Below are positions 2,843 to 14,471 of a stretch of 49,237 nucleotides of DNA, in pieces. A model generated the notes under the pieces. It worked only from the letters and a program-made list of their open reading frames with translations, had not been told where the DNA came from and made no database searches. Every line of letters starts with the position of its first letter. Within the stretch, counting starts at the first letter, position 1. A program made the position numbers and the translations under genes. This DNA comes from an uncultured Eubacteriales bacterium (GTDB lineage Bacteria; Bacillota; Clostridia; Christensenellales; Aristaeellaceae). The DNA lies in contig CADCHI010000012.1 in assembly GCA_902801165.1 (NCBI GenBank), forward strand, positions 1 to 49,237, in the 5' to 3' direction.

Positions 2843-4315
2843 ATGAACAACAGGATAACCAGCCTGCGCGATGCCCTGGACTTTCTCCGGGGCATGCCGG
2901 GCCAGTTGATCGAGACGAACGTGGTGGTGGACCCCGCCGCGGAGCTCTCTGGCGTATACCGCTATGTAGGCGCGGGTGGCACGGTCATGCGCCCCACGAC
3001 GGTGGACGGCCCGGCGATGCTCTTCCACAACGTGAAGGGCCATCCCGGAGCCAGCGTGGCCATCGGCCTGATGGCGAGCCGGGAGCGCGTGGCGCGGCTG
3101 TTCGGGTGTAAAAAGGTGGAGCTGGCCCACGTCATCCGGCGCTGCGCGGAGAACCCCATCACGCCCGTATTGGGCGAGGGCCCCGCGCCTTGCCAGCAGG
3201 TGGTGCACCGGGCGACGGACGCGGACTTCGACCTGTTCAGGCTCATCCCCGCGCCGACGAACACCCCTGTGGACGCCGGCCCGTACATCACGCTGGGCAT
3301 GTGCTACGCCACCCACCCGGACACCGGACTTTCGGACGTGACCATCCACCGCATGTGCATCCAGTCGAGGGACGAGCTGTCCATCTTCCTCCAGCCCGGT
3401 TCCCGCCACATCGGCGCGATGGCCGAGCGCGCGACGGAACTGAACCGGCCCCTGCCGATTTCGGTGTCCATCGGCGTGGACCCGGCGGTGTCTGTGTGCT
3501 CCTGCTTCGAGCCGCCCACCACGCCGCTGGGCTTCAACGAGCTGTCCATCGCTGGGGCGCTTCGTGGCGAGCCGGTGAAGATGGTGAAGTGCCTGACTGT
3601 CGACGAGCAGGACATCGCCAACGCGGAGTACGTCATCGAGGGCGAGATCCTGCCCGGCAGCAACCACGTCATCGAGGACCAGAACAGTCACACCGGCTAC
3701 GCCATGCCGGAATTCCCCGGCTACAACGGCAAGGCCAGCCACGAGTGCTGGCTGCTCAAGGTCAAGGCCGTGACCCACCGGGCGGACCCCATCATGCAGA
3801 CCTGCATCGGCCCCAGCGAGGAGCACGTGAACATGGCGGGACTGCCCACCGAGGCCAGCATATTCAGCCTCATCGACCGGGCCCTGCCGGGCAAGGTGAC
3901 GAACGTCTACGCCCACCGCTCCGGCGGTGGAAAGTACATGGCTATCCTGCAATGCAAGAAGACCGTGCATACCGACGAGGGCAAGCAGCGGCAGGCCGCC
4001 CTGCTGGCGTTCTCGGCGTTCCCGGAACTCAAGCATGTCATCCTGGTGGACGAGGACGTGGACATCTTCGACACCAACGACGTACTGTGGGCCATGAACA
4101 CCCGCTTCCAGGGGGACCGGGACATCATCGCCATCCCCGGCGTGCGCTGCCACCCGCTAGACCCCAGCGCCAGCCCGGAGTACAGCCCGTCGATACGGGA
4201 TGTGGGCGTCTCCTGCAAGACCATATTCGACTGCACCGTTCCCTTCGATCAGAAGGACCGATTCATAAGGGCGCCGTTCATGGCGCTCGACCCGGAGAAG
4301 TGGCTGCATGGCTGA
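2843..4315 (+). CDS. UbiD-family prenyl-FMN-dependent decarboxylase (LpdC/gallate-decarboxylase-like)
   Basis: This 490-residue protein has UbiD landmarks: an N-terminal segment ETNVVVDP, the FHNVKGHP strand, an AEYVIEGEILPG stretch and the acidic motif MPEFPGYNG, then GPSEEH. UbiD enzymes reversibly decarboxylate unsaturated or aromatic acids using prenylated FMN made by UbiX. From memory, the PEFPGYNG form is nearer to hydroxyarylate/gallate (LpdC) enzymes than to ubiquinone UbiD, and the LpdD-like gene two positions downstream fits that. It starts 18 bp after the permease with a CGGAGGA ribosome site and overlaps the UbiX gene by 8 bp, so the proteins are probably made together. Family is secure; the exact substrate is not. 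Confidence 0.88.
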   Translation: MNNRITSLRDALDFLRGMPGQLIETNVVVDPAAELSGVYRYVGAGGTVMRPTTVDGPAMLFHNVKGHPGASVAIGLMASRERVARLFGCKKVELAHVIRRCAENPITPVLGEGPAPCQQVVHRATDADFDLFRLIPAPTNTPVDAGPYITLGMCYATHPDTGLSDVTIHRMCIQSRDELSIFLQPGSRHIGAMAERATELNRPLPISVSIGVDPAVSVCSCFEPPTTPLGFNELSIAGALRGEPVKMVKCLTVDEQDIANAEYVIEGEILPGSNHVIEDQNSHTGYAMPEFPGYNGKASHECWLLKVKAVTHRADPIMQTCIGPSEEHVNMAGLPTEASIFSLIDRALPGKVTNVYAHRSGGGKYMAILQCKKTVHTDEGKQRQAALLAFSAFPELKHVILVDEDVDIFDTNDVLWAMNTRFQGDRDIIAIPGVRCHPLDPSASPEYSPSIRDVGVSCKTIFDCTVPFDQKDRFIRAPFMALDPEKWLHG

Positions 4316-4889
4316 GCGATTGATCATCGGCATGAGCGGAGCGTCCGGCGCTCCGCTCACTGTCGAATTATTGAGGCAATTGAGAGAACGTCACCCGGAG
4401 GTGGAGTCCCATCTCGTGGTGACGCGAAGCGCCGGGGCGACGCTGGAGGCCGAGTGCGACATCACGCTTGAACAGATGAAGGCGCTGGCCTCGGTATGGC
4501 ACGACAACGACGCCATCGGCGCGTCCATCGCCAGCGGGTCCTTCAAGACCCTGGGCATGATCGTCGTGCCGTGCAGCATGAAGACCGTGGCGGGCATCGT
4601 GTCCGGCTATTCGGACAACCTGCTGCTGCGGGCGGCGGACGTGTGCCTGAAGGAGCGACGGAAGCTGGTGCTGGTGGCGCGGGAGACGCCGCTGTCCACC
4701 GTTCACCTGCGCAACCTGTACGAGGCCAGCCGGCTCGGCGCGGTGATCCTGCCGCCGGTGCCTGCCTATTACCGAAGGCCGCTGACCCTGGAGGAATGCA
4801 CCGCCTATACCGTGCGGCGCGTCCTCGGCCAGTTTGATTTGGATGACGACGGCTATGAATGGCAGGGGATGAGTACCCATGAGGAATGA
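4308..4889 (+). CDS. ubiX: UbiX-family flavin prenyltransferase
   Basis: The protein has 193 residues, the normal UbiX length. It opens with GMSGASGAPL, the FMN-binding loop, and has a CSMKT motif that contacts the prenyl phosphate, followed by RAADVCLKERRKLVLVARETPL and a C-terminal LPPVPAYYRRP, all typical of UbiX/Pad1/LpdB. It transfers a dimethylallyl group to reduced FMN, making the cofactor used by the UbiD protein encoded just upstream. The 8-bp overlap with that gene and the 11-bp overlap with the next indicate translational coupling. A bacterium without aerobic ubiquinone synthesis would use this for catabolic or detoxifying decarboxylation. Confidence 0.93.
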   Translation: MAERLIIGMSGASGAPLTVELLRQLRERHPEVESHLVVTRSAGATLEAECDITLEQMKALASVWHDNDAIGASIASGSFKTLGMIVVPCSMKTVAGIVSGYSDNLLLRAADVCLKERRKLVLVARETPLSTVHLRNLYEASRLGAVILPPVPAYYRRPLTLEECTAYTVRRVLGQFDLDDDGYEWQGMSTHEE

Positions 4890-5238
4890 GGTCAGACACA
4901 TTCGCCTCTCGCGGGATTGCCTTGGCAGGTCGATCGAGGTCGAGACGATGGCGTTTCATGAAGGGGTTCACATCTCGGTCTATGGCGGCGACCTGGGCCA
5001 TATCGGCGCGGTCAGCATTGTAGAGCCGGGCGGACAGGTCGAGACGATCCAGTTTCCCGGCCATCGGGATGCCGTGGTCAGCGAAGCCTGGGCGAGGGCG
5101 CTCGCGGAGCTTGGCGCGGCTCCGATTGTCGTCGAGGCCGGCATTCACTTTGACGGGCTGCAAAGGGATGAGATTCGCGAGGTCCTGGACAAAACGGACG
5201 AACTGCTGGAACGGATGCGCGACGCGCTGAGGGAATAA
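4879..5238 (+). CDS. LpdD-like prenyl-FMN chaperone / decarboxylase accessory subunit
   Basis: This 119-residue protein carries HISVYGGDLGHIGAVSI, FPGHRDAVVSEAWA and VEAGIHFDG stretches. They resemble the subunit-D proteins that accompany LpdB/LpdC-type hydroxybenzoate and gallate decarboxylases and are thought to help load prenylated FMN. It overlaps the ubiX gene by 11 bp, giving the order UbiD-UbiX-D. The family call rests on recalled motifs plus the diagnostic neighbourhood. No membrane segment or signal peptide is visible, so it should be cytosolic. The operon probably ends here, because the next gene has its own promoter. Confidence 0.7.
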   Translation: MRNEVRHIRLSRDCLGRSIEVETMAFHEGVHISVYGGDLGHIGAVSIVEPGGQVETIQFPGHRDAVVSEAWARALAELGAAPIVVEAGIHFDGLQRDEIREVLDKTDELLERMRDALRE

Positions 5239-5282: not shown

Positions 5283-5311
5283 TTGAAAACACAGGACCGG
5301 CGGTGTATAAT
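5283..5311 (+). promoter_or_regulatory. Vegetative promoter of the eight-gene operon
   Basis: TTGAAA (5283-5288), a 17-bp spacer and TATAAT (5306-5311) make a near-consensus sigma-A promoter. It would produce a leader of roughly 140 nt before the first methyltransferase. Confidence 0.8.
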
Positions 5312-5338
5312 GGTAAGCGAAGACTAACAATACCCTTC

Positions 5339-5382
5339 GCCCATCCCACAGTGAGCCAAAGATGGACGGCTGTGCGGTGGGC
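5339..5382 (+). promoter_or_regulatory. Leader hairpin upstream of the methyltransferase operon
   Basis: GCCCATCCCACAG (5339-5351) pairs imperfectly with CTGTGCGGTGGGC (5370-5382), with extra pairing of AGCC and GGCT inside. It lies between the promoter and the first gene. There is no uridine tract after it, so it is not a clear terminator and may be a pausing or regulatory element. Confidence 0.45.
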
Positions 5383-5400
5383 TTTCACTTTAGACAAAGG

Positions 5401-5414
5401 TTAGGATAATCTAA
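5401..5414. promoter_or_regulatory. TTAG-N6-CTAA palindrome, candidate DtxR/IdeR-type operator
   Basis: TTAGGATAATCTAA has the same TTAG-N6-CTAA form as the three sites at 11638, 11660 and 11785. It lies about 90 bp downstream of the -10 box and 43 bp before the chosen start codon. A weak second promoter (TTTCAC-16-GATAAT) could overlap it. The operator role is inferred. Confidence 0.45.
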
Positions 5415-5456
5415 TGAATAATCGCCGATCTGCGGGCGACATGAGGAGTGAGCGAA

Positions 5457-6077
5457 TTGAAGGACTACAAGGCATTGTCCAAGAGGCATTTTGATGGGCA
5501 GGCGGCTGAATACGATCAGCGAGACACCTATTACTACTCCCAGAACGGAAAGATCAGCTGTCGTGACATCGCGGCGCAGATCAAAGGCATCGCCTATGGA
5601 GCGCTGCTGGACGTGGGCTGCGGAACCGGGTTCCTGATCGACATCCTGACGAAGCAGAGGACCGCGAAATACTGCGGCGTGGACCTCTCGGACGAGATGA
5701 TCCGCGTGGCGAGGGACAAGGGGATTCGCGGCGCGGCGTTCACGGTGGGTTCCGCTGACAGGCTGCCGTATCCCGATGAGAGCTTCGACATCGTCACCTG
5801 CTCCCAGAGCTTTCATCACTACCCCTATCCCGAGAAGGCCATGGGGGAGGCGAAGCGCGTGCTGAAGCCCGGCGGGCTGTATATTCTTTCGGATACGGGA
5901 ATCGGGGGCCTCGGCGGGTGGATCGACAATCACATCCTCTTTAAGTTGATGAAGAGCGGCGATTGCCATACCACGAACCGCAGGGGAATCGAGAAGATGA
6001 TGCAAAGAGCCGGGTTCATGATTGCGGATTCCCGACAGGTGAAGGGCATGATCTATACCGTCACCGGGAAGAAGTGA
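5457..6077 (+). CDS. Class I SAM-dependent methyltransferase (first of three)
   Basis: A 206-residue Rossmann-fold methyltransferase. Motif I is LLDVGCGTGF (about residues 46-55), the acidic SAM-ribose residue lies in CGVDLSDEM, and motifs II/III follow at SFDIVTCSQSFHHYPYPE and RVLKPGGLYILSD. TTG at 5457 is preferred because AGGAG ends 8 bp upstream; a GTG at 5448 is in frame but overlaps that site. The substrate is unknown; the SFHHYP pattern is typical of small-molecule or UbiE-like methyltransferases. It is the first gene of a compact operon and sits behind a promoter, a leader hairpin and a candidate metal-repressor site. Confidence 0.85.
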   Translation: MKDYKALSKRHFDGQAAEYDQRDTYYYSQNGKISCRDIAAQIKGIAYGALLDVGCGTGFLIDILTKQRTAKYCGVDLSDEMIRVARDKGIRGAAFTVGSADRLPYPDESFDIVTCSQSFHHYPYPEKAMGEAKRVLKPGGLYILSDTGIGGLGGWIDNHILFKLMKSGDCHTTNRRGIEKMMQRAGFMIADSRQVKGMIYTVTGKK

Positions 6078-6129
6078 ACCGGCGTCCATGCGCCTGCGCG
6101 CATTCAACCACGATCGGGAGGGGATCACC

Positions 6130-6627
6130 ATGCTCTTGACGGTTTTTCTGGCAATCGTGTTCTGCGCGGCCATGACCCTGCTGCTGATCGCGGCGGTGGC
6201 CTTCGTTCAGGACGAGCGGCTTTTCTCGTCCGCGCCGAAGGAGGCCCAGGCACTGATCAAGCCGAGGGACGAGGAGCTGTTCCATGGCGCCCGGGTCATG
6301 GGATGGGTGATGATGATTATCGGCGCACTGTTGATACTGGGCGTGGGCGTGGTTGCCATCTGGGACGGCTTCCGAAGCGGCTATTCCTTCGCGGGATTCT
6401 TCCTGCGGTTTGTGTCGATCTTCACGGTCTACAAGGTCTATGACATGATTTTCTTCGATGGGTTCCTCCTTTGCAAATACCGCTTCTTCCAGCACTACTA
6501 CCCCGAGACGGAGCAGGCGCTTACCGGCAGAAAGTACGGGTTCAACCTCAAGAGCCAGCTGTTGAAGCTGCTGGTCATATTCCCCGGGGCCTCCGCGCTC
6601 GCGGCGTGGATATGTAATTTGTTCTAA
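6130..6627 (+). CDS. Small multi-pass membrane protein, paralogue of the one at 7348
   Basis: The protein has 165 residues, with an N-terminal hydrophobic helix, a charged loop (RLFSSAPKEAQ), two further membrane helices and a C-terminal hydrophobic segment. The block YDMIFFDGFLLCKYRFF aligns with YDGIVIDRLWVGHSAFW in the protein from 7348-7824, so the two are diverged members of one family. The ATG at 6130 follows GGGAGGGG; an upstream in-frame ATG at 6088 has no good ribosome site. I do not recognise a characterised family. Two such proteins among methyltransferases suggest a membrane-associated pathway or a lipid/quinone-like substrate (inference). An 18-bp duplication covers its last six codons. 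Confidence 0.75.
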   Translation: MLLTVFLAIVFCAAMTLLLIAAVAFVQDERLFSSAPKEAQALIKPRDEELFHGARVMGWVMMIIGALLILGVGVVAIWDGFRSGYSFAGFFLRFVSIFTVYKVYDMIFFDGFLLCKYRFFQHYYPETEQALTGRKYGFNLKSQLLKLLVIFPGASALAAWICNLF

Positions 6628-6645
6628 ATATGTACTTTGTTCTAA
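6610..6645 (+). repeat. 18-bp tandem duplication across the stop codon
   Basis: ATATGTAATTTGTTCTAA (6610-6627) is followed directly by ATATGTACTTTGTTCTAA (6628-6645), with one mismatch. The first copy encodes ICNLF and the stop of the membrane protein. The second supplies the spacer before the next gene, and its end overlaps that gene's AAGAAGG ribosome site. Confidence 0.9.
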
Positions 6646-6658
6646 GAAGGTGAAAATC

Positions 6659-7342
6659 GTGACAGACAGACACTCGGAGATCCGGAACGCCTACAGGCAG
6701 ACTGGAGGCCATGTCAGCCTGTACGACGGCATGATGACCTATTCCACCTTCCTGGGGAAGGCGATCTGCCGAATCGTGTGGAACATGGACGGCGAAAAGA
6801 ACTACACCTACCTGGAGCGCGCGCTGTCCGGCGTGCCGGAGGGGTTTGCCGGGAAGCTGCTGGAGGTGCCGGTGGGTACGGGCGTGCTGACCATGCCGGT
6901 CTATCGGAGACTTCCCGGCGCGGACATCACCTGCCTGGACTATTCGCCGGACATGATGTCGGCGGCACAGGCGCGGGCGGAGGGCATGGGCCTTGAAAAC
7001 GTCCGCTTTGTGCAGGGAGATGTCGGCGCGCTGCCATTCGATGACGCGAGCTTCGACATCGTGCTCTCCCTCAACGGCTTTCACGCCTTCCCGGACAAGG
7101 AGGCGGCCTGGCGCGAGACCTTCCGGGTGCTCAAGCCCGGCGGCACCTTCTGCGGCTGCTTCTACATCCGGGGCGGCTGCGGCCGGACCGACTGGTTCAT
7201 CAGGCACCTCTACCAGCCCAAGGGCTTCTTCACGCCGCCCTACGAGACCGAGGCGAGCCTGAGGGAGCGGCTTTCAAAGCTGTATACGGAAGCGGAAGTG
7301 ACCCGCGTCGAAGGCATCGCCTGCTTCCGGTGCAGGAAGTGA
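6659..7342 (+). CDS. Class I SAM-dependent methyltransferase (second of three)
   Basis: A 227-residue methyltransferase with motif I LLEVPVGTGVLT; proline replaces the usual glycine near the SAM loop, as in some UbiE-like enzymes. It continues with ITCLDYSPDMM, FVQGDVGALPFDDASFDIV and RVLKPGGTFCGCFYIRGG. GTG at 6659 is chosen because AAGAAGG lies 8 bp upstream; another GTG at 6650 overlaps that site. The C-terminal region contains FIRHLYQPKGFFTPP. No substrate can be assigned. It lies between the two paralogous membrane protein genes, repeating a methyltransferase/membrane-protein pair and suggesting that the unit was duplicated. Confidence 0.85.
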   Translation: MTDRHSEIRNAYRQTGGHVSLYDGMMTYSTFLGKAICRIVWNMDGEKNYTYLERALSGVPEGFAGKLLEVPVGTGVLTMPVYRRLPGADITCLDYSPDMMSAAQARAEGMGLENVRFVQGDVGALPFDDASFDIVLSLNGFHAFPDKEAAWRETFRVLKPGGTFCGCFYIRGGCGRTDWFIRHLYQPKGFFTPPYETEASLRERLSKLYTEAEVTRVEGIACFRCRK

Positions 7343-7347
7343 GCGCC

Positions 7348-7824
7348 ATGATTGTCATTCAACTGATGCTGTACTGCGCCCTGTTCACGTGGATGGTGAA
7401 GCTGGGCGTGGGGAACAGTCCGCTGAACGGCCTGTTCTTCTATCCAAAGCCCGTGCAGGAGAGGGTGTACGCGCTGGGACTGACGGACCGTGAGACCGTC
7501 GGCCGGCGGAGGAAGCGGTTCATGACCGCCTTCTTCGCGGTCATGGCGGCGGCGCTCGTGCTGATCATCCGCGCCTGGAATGATATCCACGAGTTTTGGG
7601 CTGCCTACTGGCAAGTCCTGCTTTTCCTTGAAGTGATGAACTGGTACGATGGGATTGTGATCGACCGCCTGTGGGTCGGCCACAGCGCCTTCTGGGTCAT
7701 TCCGGGCACGGAGGACATTCCCTTCGTGCAGACCTGGCCGCAGGTGCTGAAAAAGCGGGTGATCCTGACGGGCATCTGGGTCGCCGGCGCCGCCATCGTC
7801 GCGGGGATCGTGGCGCTCATCTGA
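7348..7824 (+). CDS. Small multi-pass membrane protein, paralogue of the one at 6130
   Basis: This 158-residue protein has an N-terminal helix (IQLMLYCALFTWMVKLGVG), a basic loop (ETVGRRRKRF), a strongly hydrophobic helix, the WYDGIVIDRLWVGHSAFW block shared with the protein at 6130-6627, and a C-terminal helix ending in VAGIVALI. ATG at 7348 follows CAGGAAG at a proper distance and lies 5 bp after the previous stop. No characterised family was recognised. Its position before the ATC-hydrolase-like genes and its similarity to the other membrane protein argue for a shared membrane-linked role. Confidence 0.75.
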   Translation: MIVIQLMLYCALFTWMVKLGVGNSPLNGLFFYPKPVQERVYALGLTDRETVGRRRKRFMTAFFAVMAAALVLIIRAWNDIHEFWAAYWQVLLFLEVMNWYDGIVIDRLWVGHSAFWVIPGTEDIPFVQTWPQVLKKRVILTGIWVAGAAIVAGIVALI

Positions 7825-7843
7825 ATGGGAGGAAAGTCGAAAA

Positions 7844-8563
7844 ATGAGGGAAAGGGATCTGCCCTTCGACCGGTCGAAGCACGCGATCTATTCAAAGAAG
7901 GCGAAGAAGTGCGTGCGGACGCTGCTGCGCCGGTACTATGACGAACCCACGGCGGCGCGGCTGTGGGAGGAGGTCCAGCGGCAATATTGCGCGTTCCTCG
8001 AGGATGAGCCGGCCCTGGGCGGCGTGAAGATGACGGCCAGCATCTACGACCCCATACTGATCTTCGCCTGGTATGCCGTGGCCCCGGACAAGCCGCCCCT
8101 CGAGGACATTCAGCAGGATGTCTTCGACTGCTTCATGAGCGGGTTCGACGCGCTGGGAAAGCTGTTCAACCTGAACCGCAGGCTGGACAACCGCATCGCG
8201 AACCTCGCGTTCAGGAACGCCAGCGATCTGCGCAAGCGGGAGATCGAGGCGTTTCCGGGGTCCTTTCGGATGCAGGGCTATGCTTACGACAAGGAAAACG
8301 GCGTCGTCCGCTACGGCTTTGCCCAGTGCCCGAACGCGGAGTTCGCCAAGCGCCACCACATGGAGGACGTGCTGCCGGTGATGTGCAACTGCGACCACCT
8401 GGCCATGCGGAAGCTGCACGCGACGCTGATCCGGGAGGGGACGTGCTGCACCTCCGGCCTGTGCGACTACTGCATCGTGGGGGACCAGAATCCCATCGCC
8501 GGACAATACGAGCTCGCGACGCGGGACAACGGCCTGTGGGTCAGCGTGAAAAAACAAGGTTGA
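7844..8563 (+). CDS. ATC-hydrolase-like protein (L-2-amino-thiazoline-4-carboxylic acid hydrolase family)
   Basis: The protein has 239 residues. The C-terminal CNCDH and EGTCCTSGLCDYCI region, with five cysteines in a short span, resembles the ATC hydrolase family (PF14196), named after an enzyme that opens the thiazoline ring on the route to L-cysteine. Many clostridial members sit in clusters with methyltransferases and have no known function. Clustered cysteines could act catalytically or bind metal. It has a GGAGGAAAG ribosome site and follows the membrane protein by 19 bp. Family assignment is from recalled motifs; substrate inference from the family name would be unsafe. Confidence 0.65.
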   Translation: MRERDLPFDRSKHAIYSKKAKKCVRTLLRRYYDEPTAARLWEEVQRQYCAFLEDEPALGGVKMTASIYDPILIFAWYAVAPDKPPLEDIQQDVFDCFMSGFDALGKLFNLNRRLDNRIANLAFRNASDLRKREIEAFPGSFRMQGYAYDKENGVVRYGFAQCPNAEFAKRHHMEDVLPVMCNCDHLAMRKLHATLIREGTCCTSGLCDYCIVGDQNPIAGQYELATRDNGLWVSVKKQG

Positions 8564-8602
8564 TCGGCGTTCCGAACCGCGAACGCCGAAGGGGGAGGCA
8601 AT

Positions 8603-9234
8603 ATGAAACCGTACACGCCGGAGAAGCTGGTGGCGATCAGCCGCTATCAGAACTACTTTCCGACCCTGCCGGAGGAGGTCCGCGGGGAAGTCTACAGGCG
8701 GATGGATGCGCTGATCAAGGAGGAAGCGGAATACTGCGATCGGGGCAATGTCAAGCACATGGCGCAGATATTGACCTCCATCGCCCTGTACGAGGTCCTG
8801 CGGCGGCATGGTCAAACGGAAGCGGAGGCATATGGGATCGTTTCCGGGGAGATGTGGAAGTTCCTCGATCCCTCCGGGATGCAGAAGCTGGCCCGGCGGA
8901 GCTTCTTCCTGCCGCTGATGAAGAAGCTCGTCCCATTAGGCTTCAAAAAGGGTTCGGGCTTTGGCTGGCGCTACACTTGGCACAGGGACGACCCGAGGGA
9001 TGAATTTCACTTTGAGTGCAATGAATGCATCTACGCGAAGATCCTCGGGAAGCGCAACCTGATGAAGCTGGGGGGATGTGCTGCCACGCGGGCATCATCA
9101 ATTACGGGAACCTGCCGTTTACGGATTTTATCCGGACGGAGACGCTCTGCCAGGGCGGCAAGCGGTGCGATTTCCGCTTTGTGCGGCACGATACCGACGC
9201 CGGCGACGGGTGGGAGCGAACCAGGAGCATATAA
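8603..9234 (+). pseudogene. Second ATC-hydrolase-like gene, frameshifted at a G6 run
   Basis: The first part (8603 to about 9075) encodes a protein ending KRNLMKLG and then leaves frame. The +1 frame continues with MCCHAGIINYGN, RTETLCQGGKRCDFRF and a stop at 9234. This restores the Cys-rich C-terminus expected for the family (compare CCTSGLCDYC in the preceding gene). The switch lies at a run of six G (9070-9075); one extra G gives a continuous 210-residue protein. It could be a genuine inactivating deletion, a phase-variable tract or a sequencing error. The start has a GGGGAGGCAAT ribosome site. Confidence 0.8.
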
Positions 9235-9270
9235 TGCGCTTCTCATTCAAAAGAACGTCAGTCAGGGGCT

Positions 9271-9300
9271 GCTTTTCCGCCATTGCGGCGGTTGAAAAGC
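9271..9300 (+). other. Intercistronic hairpin before the MBL-fold gene
   Basis: GCTTTTC-CGCC and GGCG-GTT-GAAAAGC form a stem in the 90-bp gap between the frameshifted gene and the MBL-fold gene. There is no uridine tract, so it is more likely a processing or mRNA-stability element than a terminator. Confidence 0.4.
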
Positions 9301-9324
9301 CAACCTGCCAAGGAGGCAAATACC

Positions 9325-10194
9325 ATGGCCAGAAGGGATTCGGACAACCAAAAGCGCTCCATGAGCGCGATGTTTCGCGGCAGGGCGATCTTCAAACCGC
9401 TGAACACCGGGCGCATCGACGAGCGCGTTTCCTGCGTGCGGGAGTGGGTGGCGAACATCTTCTTCTACACGAAAAACGGCGCGACGATCATGATCGACGC
9501 GGGCTATAACTACGCGCGGCTCAGCGAGAAGATGGGCTGGCTGGACATCGACCCGGCCTCCATCCGGCACATTCTGATCACTCACCAGGACACCGACCAC
9601 GTGGGGGCGCTGGAGCCGGACAGTGAGCGGCTGTTCAAGGACGCCACCGTCTACATCGGCGAGATCGAGAACCGCTACCTGACCGGCGAGAAGCGGCGCA
9701 AGGTGATCCACGGGCTGTACAGGCTGCCCATGGTGAAGATGGACAACAAAAAGGTGCTATTGAAGGATGGCGACGTGTTCACCATCGACGGCATTAAAAT
9801 CGAATGCCTGCTGGTGCCAGGCCACACCTGGGGCCACATGGTCTACCTGATTGACGACGAATACCTGTTCACCGGCGACACGATCTGGTTCGGCGCGGAC
9901 GGCGGCTACAGCTTCATCAGCACCCTTGCGGAGGACAACCGGCTGGCCGTCCAATCCCTCGAAAAGCTGGAGGCGGATATGCGCACCAGGAAGCACCGCA
10001 TTGCGGTGATCACCGGGCACACCGGCTGGACGGACGACCTGGATTTCGCCTTTGCCCATCGGACGGAGATCTGCAAGCCCTTCACGAAGCGCTATGCCGA
10101 CCCGGAAGCGCCTTATGACGGCTATGTGGAGGACGACGACACCGAAGAGAAGGCGCGGAAGGTCCTGTTGAAGAAAAAGGAGGCAAACGCATGA
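9325..10194 (+). CDS. Metallo-beta-lactamase-fold hydrolase
   Basis: A 289-residue MBL-fold protein. The metal motif reads THQDTDH, so the usual second histidine of HxHxDH is aspartate, a variant common in clostridial MBL hydrolases. Further ligands are in PGHTWGH (about residue 177) and FTGDTIWFG, with a late histidine in TGHTGW. ATG at 9325 follows AGGAGG. The fold covers hydrolases of thioesters, lactones, phosphodiesters and more, so the substrate is open. The last bases overlap the start of the next methyltransferase (ATGA), showing coupling. A short acidic then basic tail (EDDDTEEKARKV) ends the protein. Confidence 0.85.
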   Translation: MARRDSDNQKRSMSAMFRGRAIFKPLNTGRIDERVSCVREWVANIFFYTKNGATIMIDAGYNYARLSEKMGWLDIDPASIRHILITHQDTDHVGALEPDSERLFKDATVYIGEIENRYLTGEKRRKVIHGLYRLPMVKMDNKKVLLKDGDVFTIDGIKIECLLVPGHTWGHMVYLIDDEYLFTGDTIWFGADGGYSFISTLAEDNRLAVQSLEKLEADMRTRKHRIAVITGHTGWTDDLDFAFAHRTEICKPFTKRYADPEAPYDGYVEDDDTEEKARKVLLKKKEANA

Positions 10195-11057
10195 AGGGGG
10201 ATAACGGCGTCCGGCAGAGCCGGACCGCGCCTGCGAGCGCAGCGGTGCGGGGCGATTACAAGAATTGGATGCCCAAGGGCATGATCTGGTCCTTTCTGGG
10301 CGGGGCGGTCGCCTGCGGGATCGCGGCGATCGTGCTCGATGCGCTGCTGAACGGCACGTTGAAGACCGTGTTGACGGTGGTGTTCGCAATAGCGGCGGTG
10401 GTCCTTTGCGGGCTGACCGTCTGGGCGGTGCTGATGCATCGCGCATTCAGCTACGATGGCAAGCGGCAGATGTCCCGGCAGATCATCGAGGGCACGGCGG
10501 CATATGTGAAGCTGCCCGCCGGCGGCAGGTGCCTGGATGTGGGATGCGGCAGCGGCGCGCTGGCCATCGCCGTGGCGAAGCGCAATCCCCGGGCGGAGAT
10601 CATGGGCATCGATCGCTGGGGCAGGGAATACGCATCCTTCAACAAGCAGCTGTGCGAGAGCAACGCCAGGGCCGAGGGCGTGAAGAACACCTCCTTCCAG
10701 CAGGGCGACGCCACGCACCTGGACTTTGCCGACGAGACCTTCGACGCCGTGGTGAGCAACTACGTGTACCACAACATCCCCGGCATGGCTCGAAGCGTAG
10801 ATTCGAGGCGCGTCACCGCCCGGCAGAAGTACCTGCTGGAGACCCTGCGCACGCTGAAAAAGGGCGGCACCTTCGCCATCCATGACATCTTCTCCAAATC
10901 GAAGTACGGCGACATGCAGGCGTTTGTACAGCTGCTCAGGGATATGGGCTACCAGAAGGTGGAGCTGATCGACACCACCGACGGGAAGTTCATGACGAAG
11001 TTCGAGGCGCTTTGGATGGCGCTGAGCGGATCGGCATTGCTGACGGGCGTAAAGTGA
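10191..11057 (+). CDS. Membrane-anchored SAM-dependent methyltransferase (third of three)
   Basis: The protein has 288 residues. Two hydrophobic helices (about residues 32-50 and 60-84) precede a class I methyltransferase domain with motif I CLDVGCGSGALAIAV, IMGIDRWG, FDAVVSNYVYHNIPG and LKKGGTFAIHDIF. This two-helix anchor plus methyltransferase layout is seen in clostridial proteins of unknown function. The membrane anchor agrees with the two small membrane proteins in the operon and supports a lipophilic or envelope substrate (inference). It is coupled to the MBL gene by a 4-bp overlap and is the last gene before a strong bidirectional terminator. Confidence 0.85.
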   Translation: MKGDNGVRQSRTAPASAAVRGDYKNWMPKGMIWSFLGGAVACGIAAIVLDALLNGTLKTVLTVVFAIAAVVLCGLTVWAVLMHRAFSYDGKRQMSRQIIEGTAAYVKLPAGGRCLDVGCGSGALAIAVAKRNPRAEIMGIDRWGREYASFNKQLCESNARAEGVKNTSFQQGDATHLDFADETFDAVVSNYVYHNIPGMARSVDSRRVTARQKYLLETLRTLKKGGTFAIHDIFSKSKYGDMQAFVQLLRDMGYQKVELIDTTDGKFMTKFEALWMALSGSALLTGVK

Positions 11058-11147
11058 GGATGCGGAATGCCGCGCACGGCCCGGATGTCCGGCAGGGGCA
11101 TTCACGGGACCTGTTTGCGGCCGAAGGAAAATAATTTAAACGAGAAG

Positions 11148-11199
11148 GGGCTGCCCCACGCCAGAAATCGCGGCATGGATTTCTGATGTGGGGCAGCCC
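11148..11199. terminator. Bidirectional terminator between convergent genes
   Basis: GGGCTGCCCCAC (11148-11159) and GTGGGGCAGCCC (11188-11199) form a perfect 12-bp stem with inner AGAAATC/GATTTCT pairing. T-rich sequence follows on the plus side and A/T-rich sequence (AAAATAATTTAAA) lies on the other, so it can end both the plus operon and the minus DUF2325 gene. Confidence 0.85.
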
Positions 11200-11325
11200 T
11201 CTATTCTGTTGCCTGTTTTGATAACGAAGAAGGCGGCTCGAAAGGCAAAGCTGTGAAGCGATCCCGATGAGAGCTTTGCTTCCGGCGCGGTTCTATCTCC
11301 CAATTTGGGATGGATGTCTTTCGTC

Positions 11326-11613
11326 TTACGCCTGGGTCGTCACGCGAATCAGCTCGCGCTCCAGGGCGGAGGCGCTGCCGCGGCGCAGCTTGACCAGCTG
11401 CGCCCCGTGTTTCTTGGCCTCCTTCTGGGCGCTGATGACCAGGGGGTGAGACACGGTGTCCATACAGACGAAGATGTAGTCCGGCTTTCCCAGCTGGTTG
11501 GCAAAGCTGCCTTTTTTCAGGGGTATGGCGCGCGCCGTAATGTTGTATTTGGCGCACAGGTCGCGGTAGGTGCGGCCCATGCATTCGTTGCCGCCGATGA
11601 TGATAGCGCTCAT
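11326..11613 (-). CDS. DUF2325 family protein
   Basis: A 95-residue protein beginning MSAIIIGGNECMGRTY, the glycine-rich opening of DUF2325, with a central DYIFVCMDTVSHP strand and a basic tail. The family has no established biochemical role, but in Clostridia it is often near ferrous iron transport (FeoA/FeoB) and DUF3793 genes. Its promoter (-35 TTGTCA, -10 TAATAT, 18-bp spacer, 11657-11686) is overlapped by two TTAG-N6-CTAA palindromes, so repression by a metal-sensing regulator is likely (inference). It is divergent from the DUF3793/flavodoxin operon. Confidence 0.8.
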   Translation of the reverse strand: MSAIIIGGNECMGRTYRDLCAKYNITARAIPLKKGSFANQLGKPDYIFVCMDTVSHPLVISAQKEAKKHGAQLVKLRRGSASALERELIRVTTQA

Positions 11614-11637
11614 GTTGCCTGTCCTCCGGAAATGGTA

Positions 11638-11651
11638 TTAGTTGATTCTAA
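11638..11651. promoter_or_regulatory. TTAG-N6-CTAA operator candidate 1
   Basis: TTAGTTGATTCTAA lies just downstream of the -10 box of the DUF2325 promoter, where a bound repressor would block initiation. It matches the core of the DtxR/IdeR consensus as recalled. Confidence 0.6.
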
Positions 11652-11656
11652 CACAT

Positions 11657-11686
11657 ATATTAGCATAAACTAACTTCTATTGACAA
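11657..11686 (-). promoter_or_regulatory. Promoter of the DUF2325 gene
   Basis: On the minus strand TTGTCA (11681-11686) and TAATAT (11657-11662) are separated by 18 bp. Operator candidate 2 occupies most of the interval. Confidence 0.55.
11660..11673. promoter_or_regulatory. TTAG-N6-CTAA operator candidate 2
   Basis: TTAGCATAAACTAA overlaps the -10 box and spacer of the DUF2325 promoter. It is 22 bp, or about two helical turns, from candidate 1. Confidence 0.6.
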
Positions 11687-11745
11687 GGGGTTTTCGTCTT
11701 TTGGGATTGAAGCGATGGATTGAATGTGAAATTCAGGAAAACCCA

Positions 11746-11774
11746 TTGACAACGCCAATAAGTTAGTATAATAT
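11746..11774 (+). promoter_or_regulatory. Promoter of the DUF3793-flavodoxin operon
   Basis: TTGACA (11746-11751) is followed after 17 bp by TAATAT (11769-11774); an overlapping TATAAT (11767-11772) gives a 15-bp spacer. An AGTTA-N8-TAACT inverted repeat covers the -10 region. Confidence 0.7.
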
Positions 11775-11784
11775 AACTATGAAA

Positions 11785-11798
11785 TTAGAAATAACTAA
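11785..11798. promoter_or_regulatory. TTAG-N6-CTAA operator candidate 3
   Basis: TTAGAAATAACTAA sits at the expected transcription start of the DUF3793 operon, about 10 bp after the -10 box, a position suited to repression. Confidence 0.6.
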
Positions 11799-11818
11799 CC
11801 TATGCGGAGGGATGTGCC

Positions 11819-12373
11819 ATGCTGGAACGCGCCATCATCGATCACGCTTCGCCCACGCTGGCGCGGCTCAAGCTGGGCAACCTGTTCAACCATCCCATGG
11901 GCGAAGGCTTTCCAGCGGAGTTCACAGCACTGCGCAGGCAGCTCGAGGACAGGGGCGTGACCATGACGATCCTGAAGGTCGCCCATGGCAAGGCACTGAT
12001 CTACCTCTACCGGGCGGAGGAGCTGGAAAAGGAGCTGTCCTGCGCAGGCGTGCAAAAGCTGCTCGGAGCCTGCGGCTACAGCCGGTTCGACGCGCGCGGC
12101 GCGCTTAAAACCCTGCGGGCGCGGCTGAACGGCACGGATGCCTTCCCCCACGAGATCGGCGTGTTCCTGGGCTATCCGCTGGAGGACGTGGTGGGGTTCA
12201 TCGAAAACGGCGGCAGGAACTGCCTTTCCTGCGGCTGCTGGAAGGTGTATTCCAACGAATGCGCGGCGCTTGCGGCGTTCGCGCGGTTTGAAAAGTGCAA
12301 AGCAGTCTATCAAAGGCTGTTTGCGTCGGGCTGCCCGCTGAGCCGTCTGACGGTGGCGGCAAGGCCCGCATAA
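11819..12373 (+). CDS. DUF3793 family protein
   Basis: The protein has 184 residues, with HASPTLARLKLGNLFN near the start, a central FPHEIGVFLGYPLEDVVGFIENGG and CLSCGCWKVY, all typical of DUF3793. The biochemical role is unknown. In Clostridia the family commonly lies with flavodoxins and iron-uptake genes, which fits the flavodoxin gene 21 bp downstream. It has a GGAGGG ribosome site 7 bp before the ATG. Candidate metal-repressor operators precede it. The conserved CxxCGCW could bind a metal or be redox-active, which is a guess from cysteine spacing. Confidence 0.8.
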   Translation: MLERAIIDHASPTLARLKLGNLFNHPMGEGFPAEFTALRRQLEDRGVTMTILKVAHGKALIYLYRAEELEKELSCAGVQKLLGACGYSRFDARGALKTLRARLNGTDAFPHEIGVFLGYPLEDVVGFIENGGRNCLSCGCWKVYSNECAALAAFARFEKCKAVYQRLFASGCPLSRLTVAARPA

Positions 12374-12394: not shown

Positions 12395-12802
12395 ATGAGC
12401 AAAGTGGCAGTCGTTTTCTACAGCGGTTCCGGCAACACCGAGGCCATGGCGGACGTGATCGTGAACGCCCTGGGCGCGGACAAGATCGAGGCGGAAGCCT
12501 TCAGCGCGGCGAAGGTCGCGGACTATGACGCCATCGCCTTCGGGTGCCCGGCCATGGGCGACGAAGTGTTGGAGGAGACCATCTTCCAGCCCATGTGGGA
12601 CGACGTGAAGACCGGCCTGGCGGGCAAGAAGGTGGCGCTGTTCGGCTCCTACGGCTGGGGCGACGGCCAGTGGATGCGGGACTGGGAAGCGGACGCTGCA
12701 AGCAACGGTGTGACCCTGGCCTGCGAGAGCGTGATCTGCAACGAGGCGCCCGACGACGAAGCCACCGCCGCGCTGGAGTCTCTGGCGAAGGCCATCGGCT
12801 GA
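12395..12802 (+). CDS. Flavodoxin
   Basis: A 135-residue single-domain flavodoxin. The N-terminal phosphate loop is YSGSGNTEAMA, the next conserved loop is GCPAMGDEVLEE, and GSYGWGDGQWM matches the aromatic FMN-binding loop. Flavodoxins replace ferredoxin as electron carriers when iron is scarce, in line with the putative DtxR-type operators upstream of the operon. The gene has a perfect AGGAGG ribosome site and a size typical of short-chain clostridial flavodoxins. It is the second gene after DUF3793 and is followed 16 bp later by a secreted protein gene. Confidence 0.95.
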   Translation: MSKVAVVFYSGSGNTEAMADVIVNALGADKIEAEAFSAAKVADYDAIAFGCPAMGDEVLEETIFQPMWDDVKTGLAGKKVALFGSYGWGDGQWMRDWEADAASNGVTLACESVICNEAPDDEATAALESLAKAIG

Positions 12803-12818
12803 ATGGAGGATACGTGAG

Positions 12819-14471
12819 ATGAAGAAGCTATCGTGTATTCTGCTGGCCCTGGTGATGATGCTGGGCGCGAAGGCACTGGCGGAAACGTCCGACGTCATCG
12901 AGATCAGCACCGCCGAGGAGCTTGCCGCCATCAACGACAACCTGTCCGGCAACTACGTGCTGACCGCGGACATCGACCTCGGCGGCGCGGAGTGGACGCC
13001 CATCGGCGCGTTTGCCCCGGCTGGCGAGAGCGAGGAGGAACAGGAAACTCCCGATATGAGCCTCGCCTTCACCGGCACCTTCGACGGCCAGGGACATGTC
13101 ATTTCCAATCTCGTCATCAACCAGCCCGAGGCGTGGGCGCAGGGCCTGTTCGGCTGCGTCGCAAATGCAAAGGTGGGCAACTTCACCCTGGAGAACGCCG
13201 CCGTGGACGCCCAGCTGATGGGCGCCGACGTGGTGGGCTATGCCTACATGTCCACCGTCTCCGGCGTGAACCTGGTGAACGGCAAGGTCACCGCGCATGC
13301 GGGCGAGATGAGCGCAGAGGGCATGTACGGCGGCATCGTCGGCGCGGGCATGGGTTCCATGATCGAGAACTGCACCGCCCAGGCGGACATCGTGATCCCG
13401 GATGGCACCGCCAACGCGGGCATCGTGGGCGGCGGCCTGGAGATGACCAGCGTGGTGGGCTGCACCGCCACCGGCACCGTCACCGCGGGCAATGACTGCT
13501 ACGGCCTGGGCGGCGTGTCCGGCTGCGGCTTCGCGGCGGAGCAGTTCACGAACTGCACCGCGGAGAATGTGACCATCACCGCGGGCGACAACTGCTTCTG
13601 GATCGGCGGCGTCACCGGCTACGCCGGCGGCTATGCGGACGAGCAGTATGGCATGCCCGTGACCGTGTTCACGAACTGCGTCGCGCGGAACGTGACCGTC
13701 AACGCGGGCGAGAACGCCGACGGCATCGGCGACATCGTCGGAGCGGGCTTCTACAACGAAGAAGTCGCCCAGGCCATGGGCGCGCCCTTCGACCAGCCAA
13801 CCTCCTTTGAGCTGGTGGACTGCGCAGTGGAGAGCGACGCAGACGCCGCGGCACAGCTGCTGGAGGACGTGAAGGGCACCTACGTGGCGCTGTTCCCGAC
13901 CATCACCGATCCCGCCTACGACCAGATTTGGCTGGACCACTGCGCCGCCGTGGTTGGCGACGAGATGGCCCCGGCGGTGGCTGAGATGCTCAAGGCCGCC
14001 TGCAACGGCACCATCTACGGCCAGGAGGCCGTGGACGCCTACGGCGACGGCTCGAACGGCGCGCAGTTCGACTGCCTGTTCGTGGGCGGCGTCGACCAGA
14101 TCACCTTCGACGGCACGACGATCAGCGGCACGCTGGAGGGCGAAGCGGGGTTTTCCCACGAGTACGCCTATGTCGGCCCCCTGTCCCTGGGCGGCATGAT
14201 GGACGGCTACCTCTATGAGACCACCGACGCGGACGCGGGCGAGTTCAAGTACTTCTTCATGATGCCCGACACGCCGGCGAGCACCTATCACCTGGAGTTC
14301 CGCTATGGCAGCGACGTGGACGCCCTGACCGAGTATGCCACAGGCCCCTACGCCTACTGGCTGGCCGCGGGCTTCCCGGTGGACGCGGACCAGGAGATGA
14401 TCGAGAACGTCGTCGGCCTGTTCTGCGACGAGAACCTGGCGGAGATGGCGGAGGAACAGCCCGCCGCCTGA
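12819..14471 (+). CDS. Secreted GLUG-repeat protein with a ZinT-like C-terminal domain
   Basis: The protein has 550 residues. Residues 1-21 form a signal peptide ending AKALA. Residues about 30-330 contain an ISTAEELAAIND opening, LTADIDLGG, FTGTFDGQGH and several glycine-rich GGIVGAG/GGVTGYAGG repeats, typical of GLUG beta-repeat surface proteins. From about residue 355 the sequence resembles ZinT/YodA metal-binding domains: VDQITFDGTTISGT, EYAYVGPL, YETTDADAGEFKYFF and YHLEFRYGSD. Of the ZinT zinc-ligand histidines, only the one in YHLEF seems kept, so metal binding may differ or be lost. Its place behind flavodoxin suggests a role in metal limitation. GLUG identity is firm; the ZinT assignment was made by eye. 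Confidence 0.75.
   Translation: MKKLSCILLALVMMLGAKALAETSDVIEISTAEELAAINDNLSGNYVLTADIDLGGAEWTPIGAFAPAGESEEEQETPDMSLAFTGTFDGQGHVISNLVINQPEAWAQGLFGCVANAKVGNFTLENAAVDAQLMGADVVGYAYMSTVSGVNLVNGKVTAHAGEMSAEGMYGGIVGAGMGSMIENCTAQADIVIPDGTANAGIVGGGLEMTSVVGCTATGTVTAGNDCYGLGGVSGCGFAAEQFTNCTAENVTITAGDNCFWIGGVTGYAGGYADEQYGMPVTVFTNCVARNVTVNAGENADGIGDIVGAGFYNEEVAQAMGAPFDQPTSFELVDCAVESDADAAAQLLEDVKGTYVALFPTITDPAYDQIWLDHCAAVVGDEMAPAVAEMLKAACNGTIYGQEAVDAYGDGSNGAQFDCLFVGGVDQITFDGTTISGTLEGEAGFSHEYAYVGPLSLGGMMDGYLYETTDADAGEFKYFFMMPDTPASTYHLEFRYGSDVDALTEYATGPYAYWLAAGFPVDADQEMIENVVGLFCDENLAEMAEEQPAA

Follow-up and report, generated by a model that had tools for sequence, protein, structure and literature searches.

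TTAG-N6-CTAA boxes as candidate iron-responsive operators at a methyltransferase operon and a flavodoxin locus of an uncultured clostridial bacterium

The DtxR/IdeR iron regulon of high-GC Gram-positive bacteria comprises genes for iron uptake that are repressed through occlusion of RNA polymerase, and its operator consensus, TTAGGTTAGCCTAACCTAA, contains the arrangement TTAG-N6-CTAA, as described in an excerpt of PMC7762939 and as an earlier note on the DNA analyzed here had claimed. In C. difficile, according to part of the text of PMC6311696, fldX and zupT go up, and hyd and a branch of pfl go down, when the regulator Fur is lost or iron is low. Here we describe TTAG-N6-CTAA boxes in a stretch of 49,237 bases (contig CADCHI010000012.1 of assembly GCA_902801165.1, hereafter the window) from an uncultured Eubacteriales bacterium, where they stand before an eight-gene operon of methyltransferase and ATC_hydrolase-like genes and between a DUF2325 gene and a divergent DUF3793-flavodoxin gene pair. 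The earlier note had proposed a single metal-responsive repressor for both loci. That proposal holds insofar as the two loci share an operator-like box whose metal is most likely iron, whereas a DtxR gene was not found in this assembly. We consider it likely that the sites, written more fully as RTTAG-N6-CTAAY, are operators of an iron-responsive repressor, most likely of the DtxR family, and the methyltransferase operon probably belongs to the response to iron shortage.

Box sites in the window and in the rest of the genome

An exact scan of the window confirmed that the four sites already noted, at 5401, 11638, 11660 and 11785, are its only exact copies, and the estimate of less than one chance match also held, as dinucleotide shuffles gave an expectation of 0.05 and none of 100 shuffles reached four. 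Allowing one mismatch added just the sites at 5314 and 11763, both within the same two regulatory regions, and the telling feature of these copies is their placement and not their number. The sites at 11763 and 11660 each overlap a -10 box, and those at 11785 and 11638 sit 22 bp further downstream, while 5314 and 5401 form a pair on either side of a hairpin, an arrangement that the earlier note had missed. Six promoter-like matches were found between 5200 and 12000 (2.1 expected), the top two being the promoters of the operon leader and of DUF3793 (Table 1), with the DUF2325 promoter (11686-11657, minus strand) one of four tied at 9 of 12.

In the genome-wide search that the earlier note had suggested, the 3.55 Mb assembly was found to hold only 10 exact sites, including the four in the window, vs 45 for the pattern read backwards. 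Five of the six outside the window lie upstream of operons or genes. Two of them (C77:5997 and C20:15715; genomes, contigs and loci are given by our G, C and L numbers) fall within leaders organized like the one before the window operon, one (C63) stands shortly before the -10 box of a ZIP transporter gene, one (C20:7077) immediately after the -10 box of an ATP-binding cassette (ABC) transporter gene pair, and one (C34) about 170 bp before the gene for a NuoE-type [2Fe-2S] subunit. The tenth site (C7), in which the flanking R and Y are missing, is probably due to chance. The feoAB operon of this genome begins with a marR gene, whose promoter has ATAAGTTAG-N10-CTAACTTAT, a spacing variant of the box.

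A composite leader with two boxes and a hairpin

What is new at the methyltransferase operon is its leader, a composite cassette of promoter, two boxes and hairpin in which the -10 box is followed by box 1, which covers the point where transcription is expected to start, a covarying hairpin, and box 2 about 85 bp further. A pattern built from three leaders of this genome, requiring TAAG in box 1, matched 27 of 300 same-family genomes, this genome included, and its reversed control matched none. A wider pattern admitting TAAG or TTAG in box 1, run on a collection of 84,980 species, matched 45 stretches, 44 of which are titled as Clostridia-type bacteria, 30 of these bearing RUG or RGIG (deer and sheep gut) isolate names, the former of which we take to be rumen-type. 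The remaining match, from Legionella, was judged to be chance, as was a single match among viral_contigs that has no second box, and a viral origin of the leader was rejected. Pooled from all sources there were 50 distinct matches, from which L112 and L125 were dropped as chance. The two related patterns thus gave 48 plausible distinct leaders, and the cassette can therefore serve as a probe for further parts of the system.

Box 2 was no part of the search pattern, and is recognizable in 45 of the 48 leaders (L052, L085 and L117 are without it), as an exact TTAG-N6-CTAA in 42 of the 45, with a spacing from box 1 of 78-92 bp in 43 and of 62 or 70 bp in two. The leaders of relatives also have a similar -35 element (mostly CTTGAAA or CTTGCAA-like) and TATAAT, the latter having been in the pattern. 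Among the 45 leaders the six-base core of box 2 is highly variable, as would be expected for a dimer-binding DNA site, and box 1 shows some preference, the seventh base of the box being G in 40.

The hairpin was aligned over 43 leaders (40 of them distinct), and 89.3% of the cells of its 13-pair stem are standard pairs. Two-sided changes occupy 25 cells vs 9.9 in shuffles, none of 500 of which reached 25, and six pairs show such a change vs 3.9 (equaled in 16 of 500 shuffles), while the covariation score is 0.234 vs 0.156 in shuffles and at most 0.100 in slid versions; the shuffles ignore the relatedness of the leaders. Compensatory changes in the hairpin hence exceed both the shuffled and the slid controls. 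A search of three leader loci against Rfam at a permissive threshold returned one match, far under the gathering score and off the leader. The leaders L078 and L079, omitted from the alignment for their shortened hairpins, have lost much of the hairpin and kept both boxes, and offer a natural test of its role.

In many leader loci of Clostridia metagenome-assembled genomes (MAGs), the downstream genes are drawn from one set in shuffled order, comprising the window's three methyltransferases and two small hydrophobic proteins, ATC_hydrolase-like proteins, the metallo-beta-lactamase-fold hydrolase, DUF6796 proteins, alpha/beta hydrolases and ABC pairs; some loci, e.g., L080, L097, L100, L102 and L120, have no match to this set. 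At L089, from another genus, the leader operon is followed by DUF3793-flavodoxin genes, whose promoter shows the two-box arrangement of its counterpart in the window, each box having one mismatch.

The box in relatives and the likely regulator

The company that the box keeps in relatives points to iron. In seven relatives RTTAGN6CTAAY occurs at 61 sites vs 23 for the reversed pattern, and by hand reading 30 of the 61 stand before DUF3793-flavodoxin, DUF2325, ZIP (once via an AraC gene), FTR1, feo or dtxR genes, eight are leader boxes, and three are found ahead of NuoE-type genes (two sites) or of a pyruvate formate-lyase (PFL) gene (one site). DUF3793-flavodoxin genes are boxed in all seven (in G128 the box is shared with a divergent DUF2325 gene, and DUF3793 matches as a fragment), ZIP genes in five (four directly and G091 through the AraC gene), the FTR1 iron permease and DUF2325 in three each, dtxR in two and feo in one. 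The place of the methyltransferase operon in a metal-responsive regulon is well supported by comparison, because the companions of its box in relatives make up a clostridial iron-limitation gene set.

For matches to feoA and dtxR, just 30 loci each were taken in, with 11 other palindromes of the letters TTAG as controls and gene starts in the MAGs called by hand. Six relatives, spread over four genera, have exact boxes in their feoA-feoA-feoB loci, amounting to 12 sites in 6 of the 30 whole feoA loci vs 0-6 for the controls, the best of which, AGTT, had six matches in six loci, several being box-like palindromes on feo promoters. Within 450 bp upstream of dtxR there were five exact sites in 4 of 30 loci vs 0-1 for the controls, three of them at 47-53 bp before the start. 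For the link to iron, the positional evidence from the seven relatives is stronger than these locus counts. Putative operators with TTAG/CTAA half-sites 10 bp apart lie on promoters, and iron-uptake genes are among their apparent targets.

Several side observations concern the same promoters. All four DUF2325 promoters compared (window 11637-11674, L229, L240 and L245) have two boxes 21-22 bp apart, or two helical turns, which suggests two dimers on the same face of the DNA. Three genomes encode a small regulator of the AraC type divergently from FTR1 (L225 by Pfam, L235 and L249 by resemblance); in a fourth (L217) it stands upstream of ZIP, and it may be a further metal regulator. Wider-spaced relatives of the box, with a gap of 10 bases between the half-sites as at marR-feo of this genome, are found on some feo promoters (L172, L175, L191, L192, and L016 at 8098-8130). 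In G108, a box closely precedes two genes for GLUG-motif proteins, one identified by Pfam (L250) and the other only by resemblance (L248).

Based on these placements, we propose that when iron is sufficient, transcription from the leader, DUF2325 and DUF3793-flavodoxin promoters would be blocked by metal-loaded repressor dimers bound at their -10 boxes or immediately 3' of them, and that when iron is short the repressor would be released and the uptake systems, flavodoxin and the methyltransferase/ATC-hydrolase operon would be made. In this scheme the sites, their places on promoters, their neighbors in relatives and the conserved hairpin are read directly from the sequences, and the iron signal, the DtxR protein, repression and any part played by the hairpin are inferred. 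Box 2 of the leader, about 85 bp 3' of box 1, could serve as a second block or help in the formation of a loop, and the hairpin would act in the transcript.

The box is rare in this genome, with no overall enrichment, and in the window six copies with at most one mismatch are not significant vs 3.4 expected, as 20 shuffles reach six. A number of results weigh against an iron-responsive DtxR-type operator. The genome's own feo promoter has just the N10 variant and no exact box, and box 1 of the leaders is mostly GTAAG (37 of 45) and not GTTAG, one of the two collection patterns having required TAAG. Among the feoA loci, 24 of 30 have no exact box, eight of which carry GTTAA-N6-TTAAC instead (L178-L180, L193-L197), and within 450 bp before the feoA match the box, at four sites in three loci, hardly differs from AGTT, at three in three, although some feo boxes fall outside these windows where it was the second feoA that matched, and a number of the AGTT matches are box-like palindromes themselves. 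The upstream regions of 26 of 30 dtxR genes have no exact box, and the pair at L159 is about 330-350 bp away from the start. When whole dtxR loci are counted, the box (six in four) is barely above the TGAT control (five in four). About a third of the sites in the seven relatives (20 of 61) lie at other operon-type genes, at GLUG-like proteins or are unassigned, and are not obviously metal-related. Finally, the DtxR C-terminal domain was not found in this assembly, which is 88.6% complete, and G086 (96%) and G108 (94%), two well-completed relatives that bear leaders and have boxes, are also without a DtxR match.

A DtxR-family protein nevertheless appears the most likely regulator, with a MarR protein second, because 40 of 44 genomes have DtxR-type proteins (in 38 the match is over the family cut-off), fewer have the MarR and TetR candidates, the FUR-family genes look Zur- or PerR-like and have no box, and the DtxR protein of a close relative aligns best to MntR and then to DtxR/IdeR. 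The DtxR-family gene that the earlier note had proposed to look for was not found here and is common among relatives; 24 of the 27 leader-bearing genomes have it, and its four absences compare with 5.2 expected from incompleteness alone. A TetR (LmrA/YxaF-like) gene beside the C77 leader was rejected as the common regulator, as it was found in just 3 of 44 genomes at E<=1e-20. Four relatives have a dtxR gene some 3 kb away from the marR that stands before feoA (G060:C43, G201:C42, G254:C181, G278:C111), as if marR-feoAB-dtxR were one unit.

It is unlikely, though not far-fetched, that these boxes are controlled not by DtxR but by the MarR-family protein encoded beside feoAB, with iron or some other signal as its input. 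The half-sites on its own promoter in this genome speak for it, as does a homolog in G036 (45% identical), where feoA is preceded by an exact TTAG-N6-CTAA and the promoter of the homolog itself has a copy with one mismatch, and five more feo-linked marR promoters (L130, L131, L133, L135, L136) carry GTTAG-, GTTAT- or GTAAG-type half-sites. However, L132 and L134, which are feo-linked as well, show no clear box, and at E<=1e-12 this MarR is present in only 11 of 44 genomes, the copy in G189 not being beside feoA. It was demoted as a universal regulator for its presence in just 8 of 27 leader-bearing genomes, and the leader is kept without it in the well-completed G016 (99%), G091 (97%) and G086. 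Clearly less probable is control by a Fur-family protein with an unusual box. The TTAG-N6-CTAA box is presumably unlike the Fur box, which weighs against it, and of the two FUR-family genes of this genome, one looks Zur-like from its ABC ATPase neighbor and the other PerR-like from a neighboring rubredoxin-like frame, with no TTAG-N6-CTAA at either locus; the incomplete assembly could hide a third Fur. In its favor are the presence of these two FUR-family genes and the control of the equivalent genes of C. difficile by Fur (PMC6311696).

Slightly more probable than Fur, but still improbable, is that the leader boxes act as RNA, the CUAAC of box 1 pairing with the GUUAG of box 2 and closing the hairpin into a riboswitch-like element. 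The halves are able to pair in all 45 leaders, four of which combine CTAAT in box 1 with ATTAG in box 2, while two other CTAAT leaders keep GTTAG, where G-U pairing is possible. Pairing between the boxes is, however, not supported by their N6 cores, which over the 45 leaders are complementary no more than by chance (78 matches vs a shuffled mean of 72.8, p=0.23); moreover, the same box occurs on promoters outside the leader cassette, and leaders with a shortened hairpin still have both boxes. That an AT-rich word has clustered by chance can hardly explain the sites at all: the word is short, its one-mismatch counts are unremarkable and genome-wide it is rarer than its reversed control, but the excess of exact sites in the window, their placement on promoters and their recurrence at the same genes across genera argue against it.

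Genes of the two loci and comparison with known systems

Table 1. Promoters, boxes, hairpin and genes at the two loci of the window
Feature	Position	Strand	Remarks
Leader promoter	5283..5311	+	TTGAAA - 17 bp - TATAAT; 11 of 12
Box 1	5313..5328	+	GTAAG-CGAAGA-CTAAC; immediately 3' of -10, covering expected transcription start
Hairpin in 5' leader	5339..5382	+	Stem up to 13 bp (GCCCAUC..CACAG / CUGUG..GGUGGGC); fold and covariation over 43 leaders
Box 2	5400..5415	+	GTTAG-GATAAT-CTAAT; site 5401
W1, class I methyltransferase	5448..6077	+	Pfam; start possibly TTG 5457 (sequence reading)
W2, helical, probably membrane protein	6088..6627	+	No Pfam family; low-confidence model
W3, class I methyltransferase	6650..7342	+	Pfam
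W4, small protein with hydrophobic stretches	7330..7824	+	No Pfam family
W5, ATC_hydrolase-like (PF14196)	7844..8563	+	Pfam; C terminus Cys-rich
W6, second ATC_hydrolase-like protein	8603..9295	+	Under Pfam cut-off
W7, metallo-beta-lactamase-fold hydrolase	9283..10194	+	Pfam
W8, class I methyltransferase	10191..11057	+	Pfam; N-terminal hydrophobic segment by eye
DUF2325 protein	11326..11613	-	Pfam
Box downstream of DUF2325 promoter	11637..11652	-	GTTAG-AATCAA-CTAAT on minus
Box over -10 of DUF2325 promoter	11659..11674	-	GTTAG-TTTATG-CTAAT on minus; 22 bp from the 11637..11652 box
DUF3793 promoter	11746-11774	+	10 of 12
One-mismatch box over -10 of DUF3793-flavodoxin promoter	11762..11777	+	GTTAG-TATAAT-ATAAC
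Box immediately 3' of DUF3793 promoter	11784..11799	+	ATTAG-AAATAA-CTAAC
DUF3793 protein	11819..12373	+	Pfam
Short-chain flavodoxin	12395..12802	+

Within the operon, W4 and W2 share about 20% identity in a forced alignment, and structure predictions are of low confidence, with a mean predicted local distance difference test (pLDDT) of 49.8 for W5 and 62.4 for W2. W6 seems to contain a frameshift near 9,070, beyond which it no longer aligns with homologs, and the relative L116 matches it in two pieces; the break may be a sequencing error or real. The flavodoxin gene is followed by a weak GLUG-motif match (12819-14471), and just upstream of the leader lie genes for a UbiD-like decarboxylase, a UbiX-like flavoprotein and a PAC_bac protein (2843-5238), with no box of at most one mismatch before them.

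PF14196 has been described as resembling the HNOB and V4R domains (in part of PMC5847659), and one of its members was provisionally placed in a tetrapyrrole gene cluster (in part of PMC8401325). A role of the operon in a small-molecule pathway is plausible, but no more, because of this context of PF14196, the methyltransferases and the ABC pairs, and an iron-scavenging metabolite as its product is a guess. We would suggest, with considerable doubt, that the cassettes mark a family of combinatorial iron-repressed operons of gut Clostridia that make, modify and export a small molecule for anaerobic iron scavenging or sparing, in which the hairpin adds RNA-level control between two repressor boxes.

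The literature searched was that under open licence, where papers on DUF6796/ATC-hydrolase and on DUF2325 gave only context. A common link of DUF3793 and DUF2325 to iron in Clostridia, as stated in the earlier note, was not found there; DUF3793 appeared in one unrelated paper, and for DUF2325 a Campylobacter study (PMC9426514) reports control by PerR and raises metal binding as a speculation. Nor did the motif turn up there in any of four spellings, and there was no paper joining DtxR, feoAB, flavodoxin, regulon and Clostridium. The present analysis places an operon of no assigned function and the DUF3793 and DUF2325 families within a probable iron-limitation response, so that their function becomes directly testable in cultures of a carrier grown in the presence or absence of iron.

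Among known systems, the DtxR/IdeR regulon is the closest in operator, from which the box described here differs in having an unconstrained N6 core and no outer repeat. The DtxR-type proteins of most relatives examined also differ from DtxR/IdeR in apparently being short, MntR-like in length; they have EDYLE near the N terminus, which we take to be the MntR pattern, and Cys where MntR has Glu99, which we take, on our assumed site numbering, to be the DtxR pattern. Among solved structures, the DtxR protein of a relative is closest to MntR of Bacillus subtilis and relatives, its best PDB matches, and then to DtxR/IdeR, but the apparent targets differ from those of MntR in including feo, FTR1 and flavodoxin, which suggests iron rather than manganese. 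The leader resembles the 5' leader RNAs of Rfam in its conserved, covarying hairpin, although no Rfam family fits. In gene content the nearest system is the Fur regulon of C. difficile, with a similar set of feo, fldX and zupT and with changes in hyd and pfl (PMC6311696, in part), from which both the regulator family and the box differ here. The TTAG-N6-CTAA box is a recognizable candidate iron box for those gut Clostridia that seem to rely on a DtxR-type regulator in place of the Fur of C. difficile.

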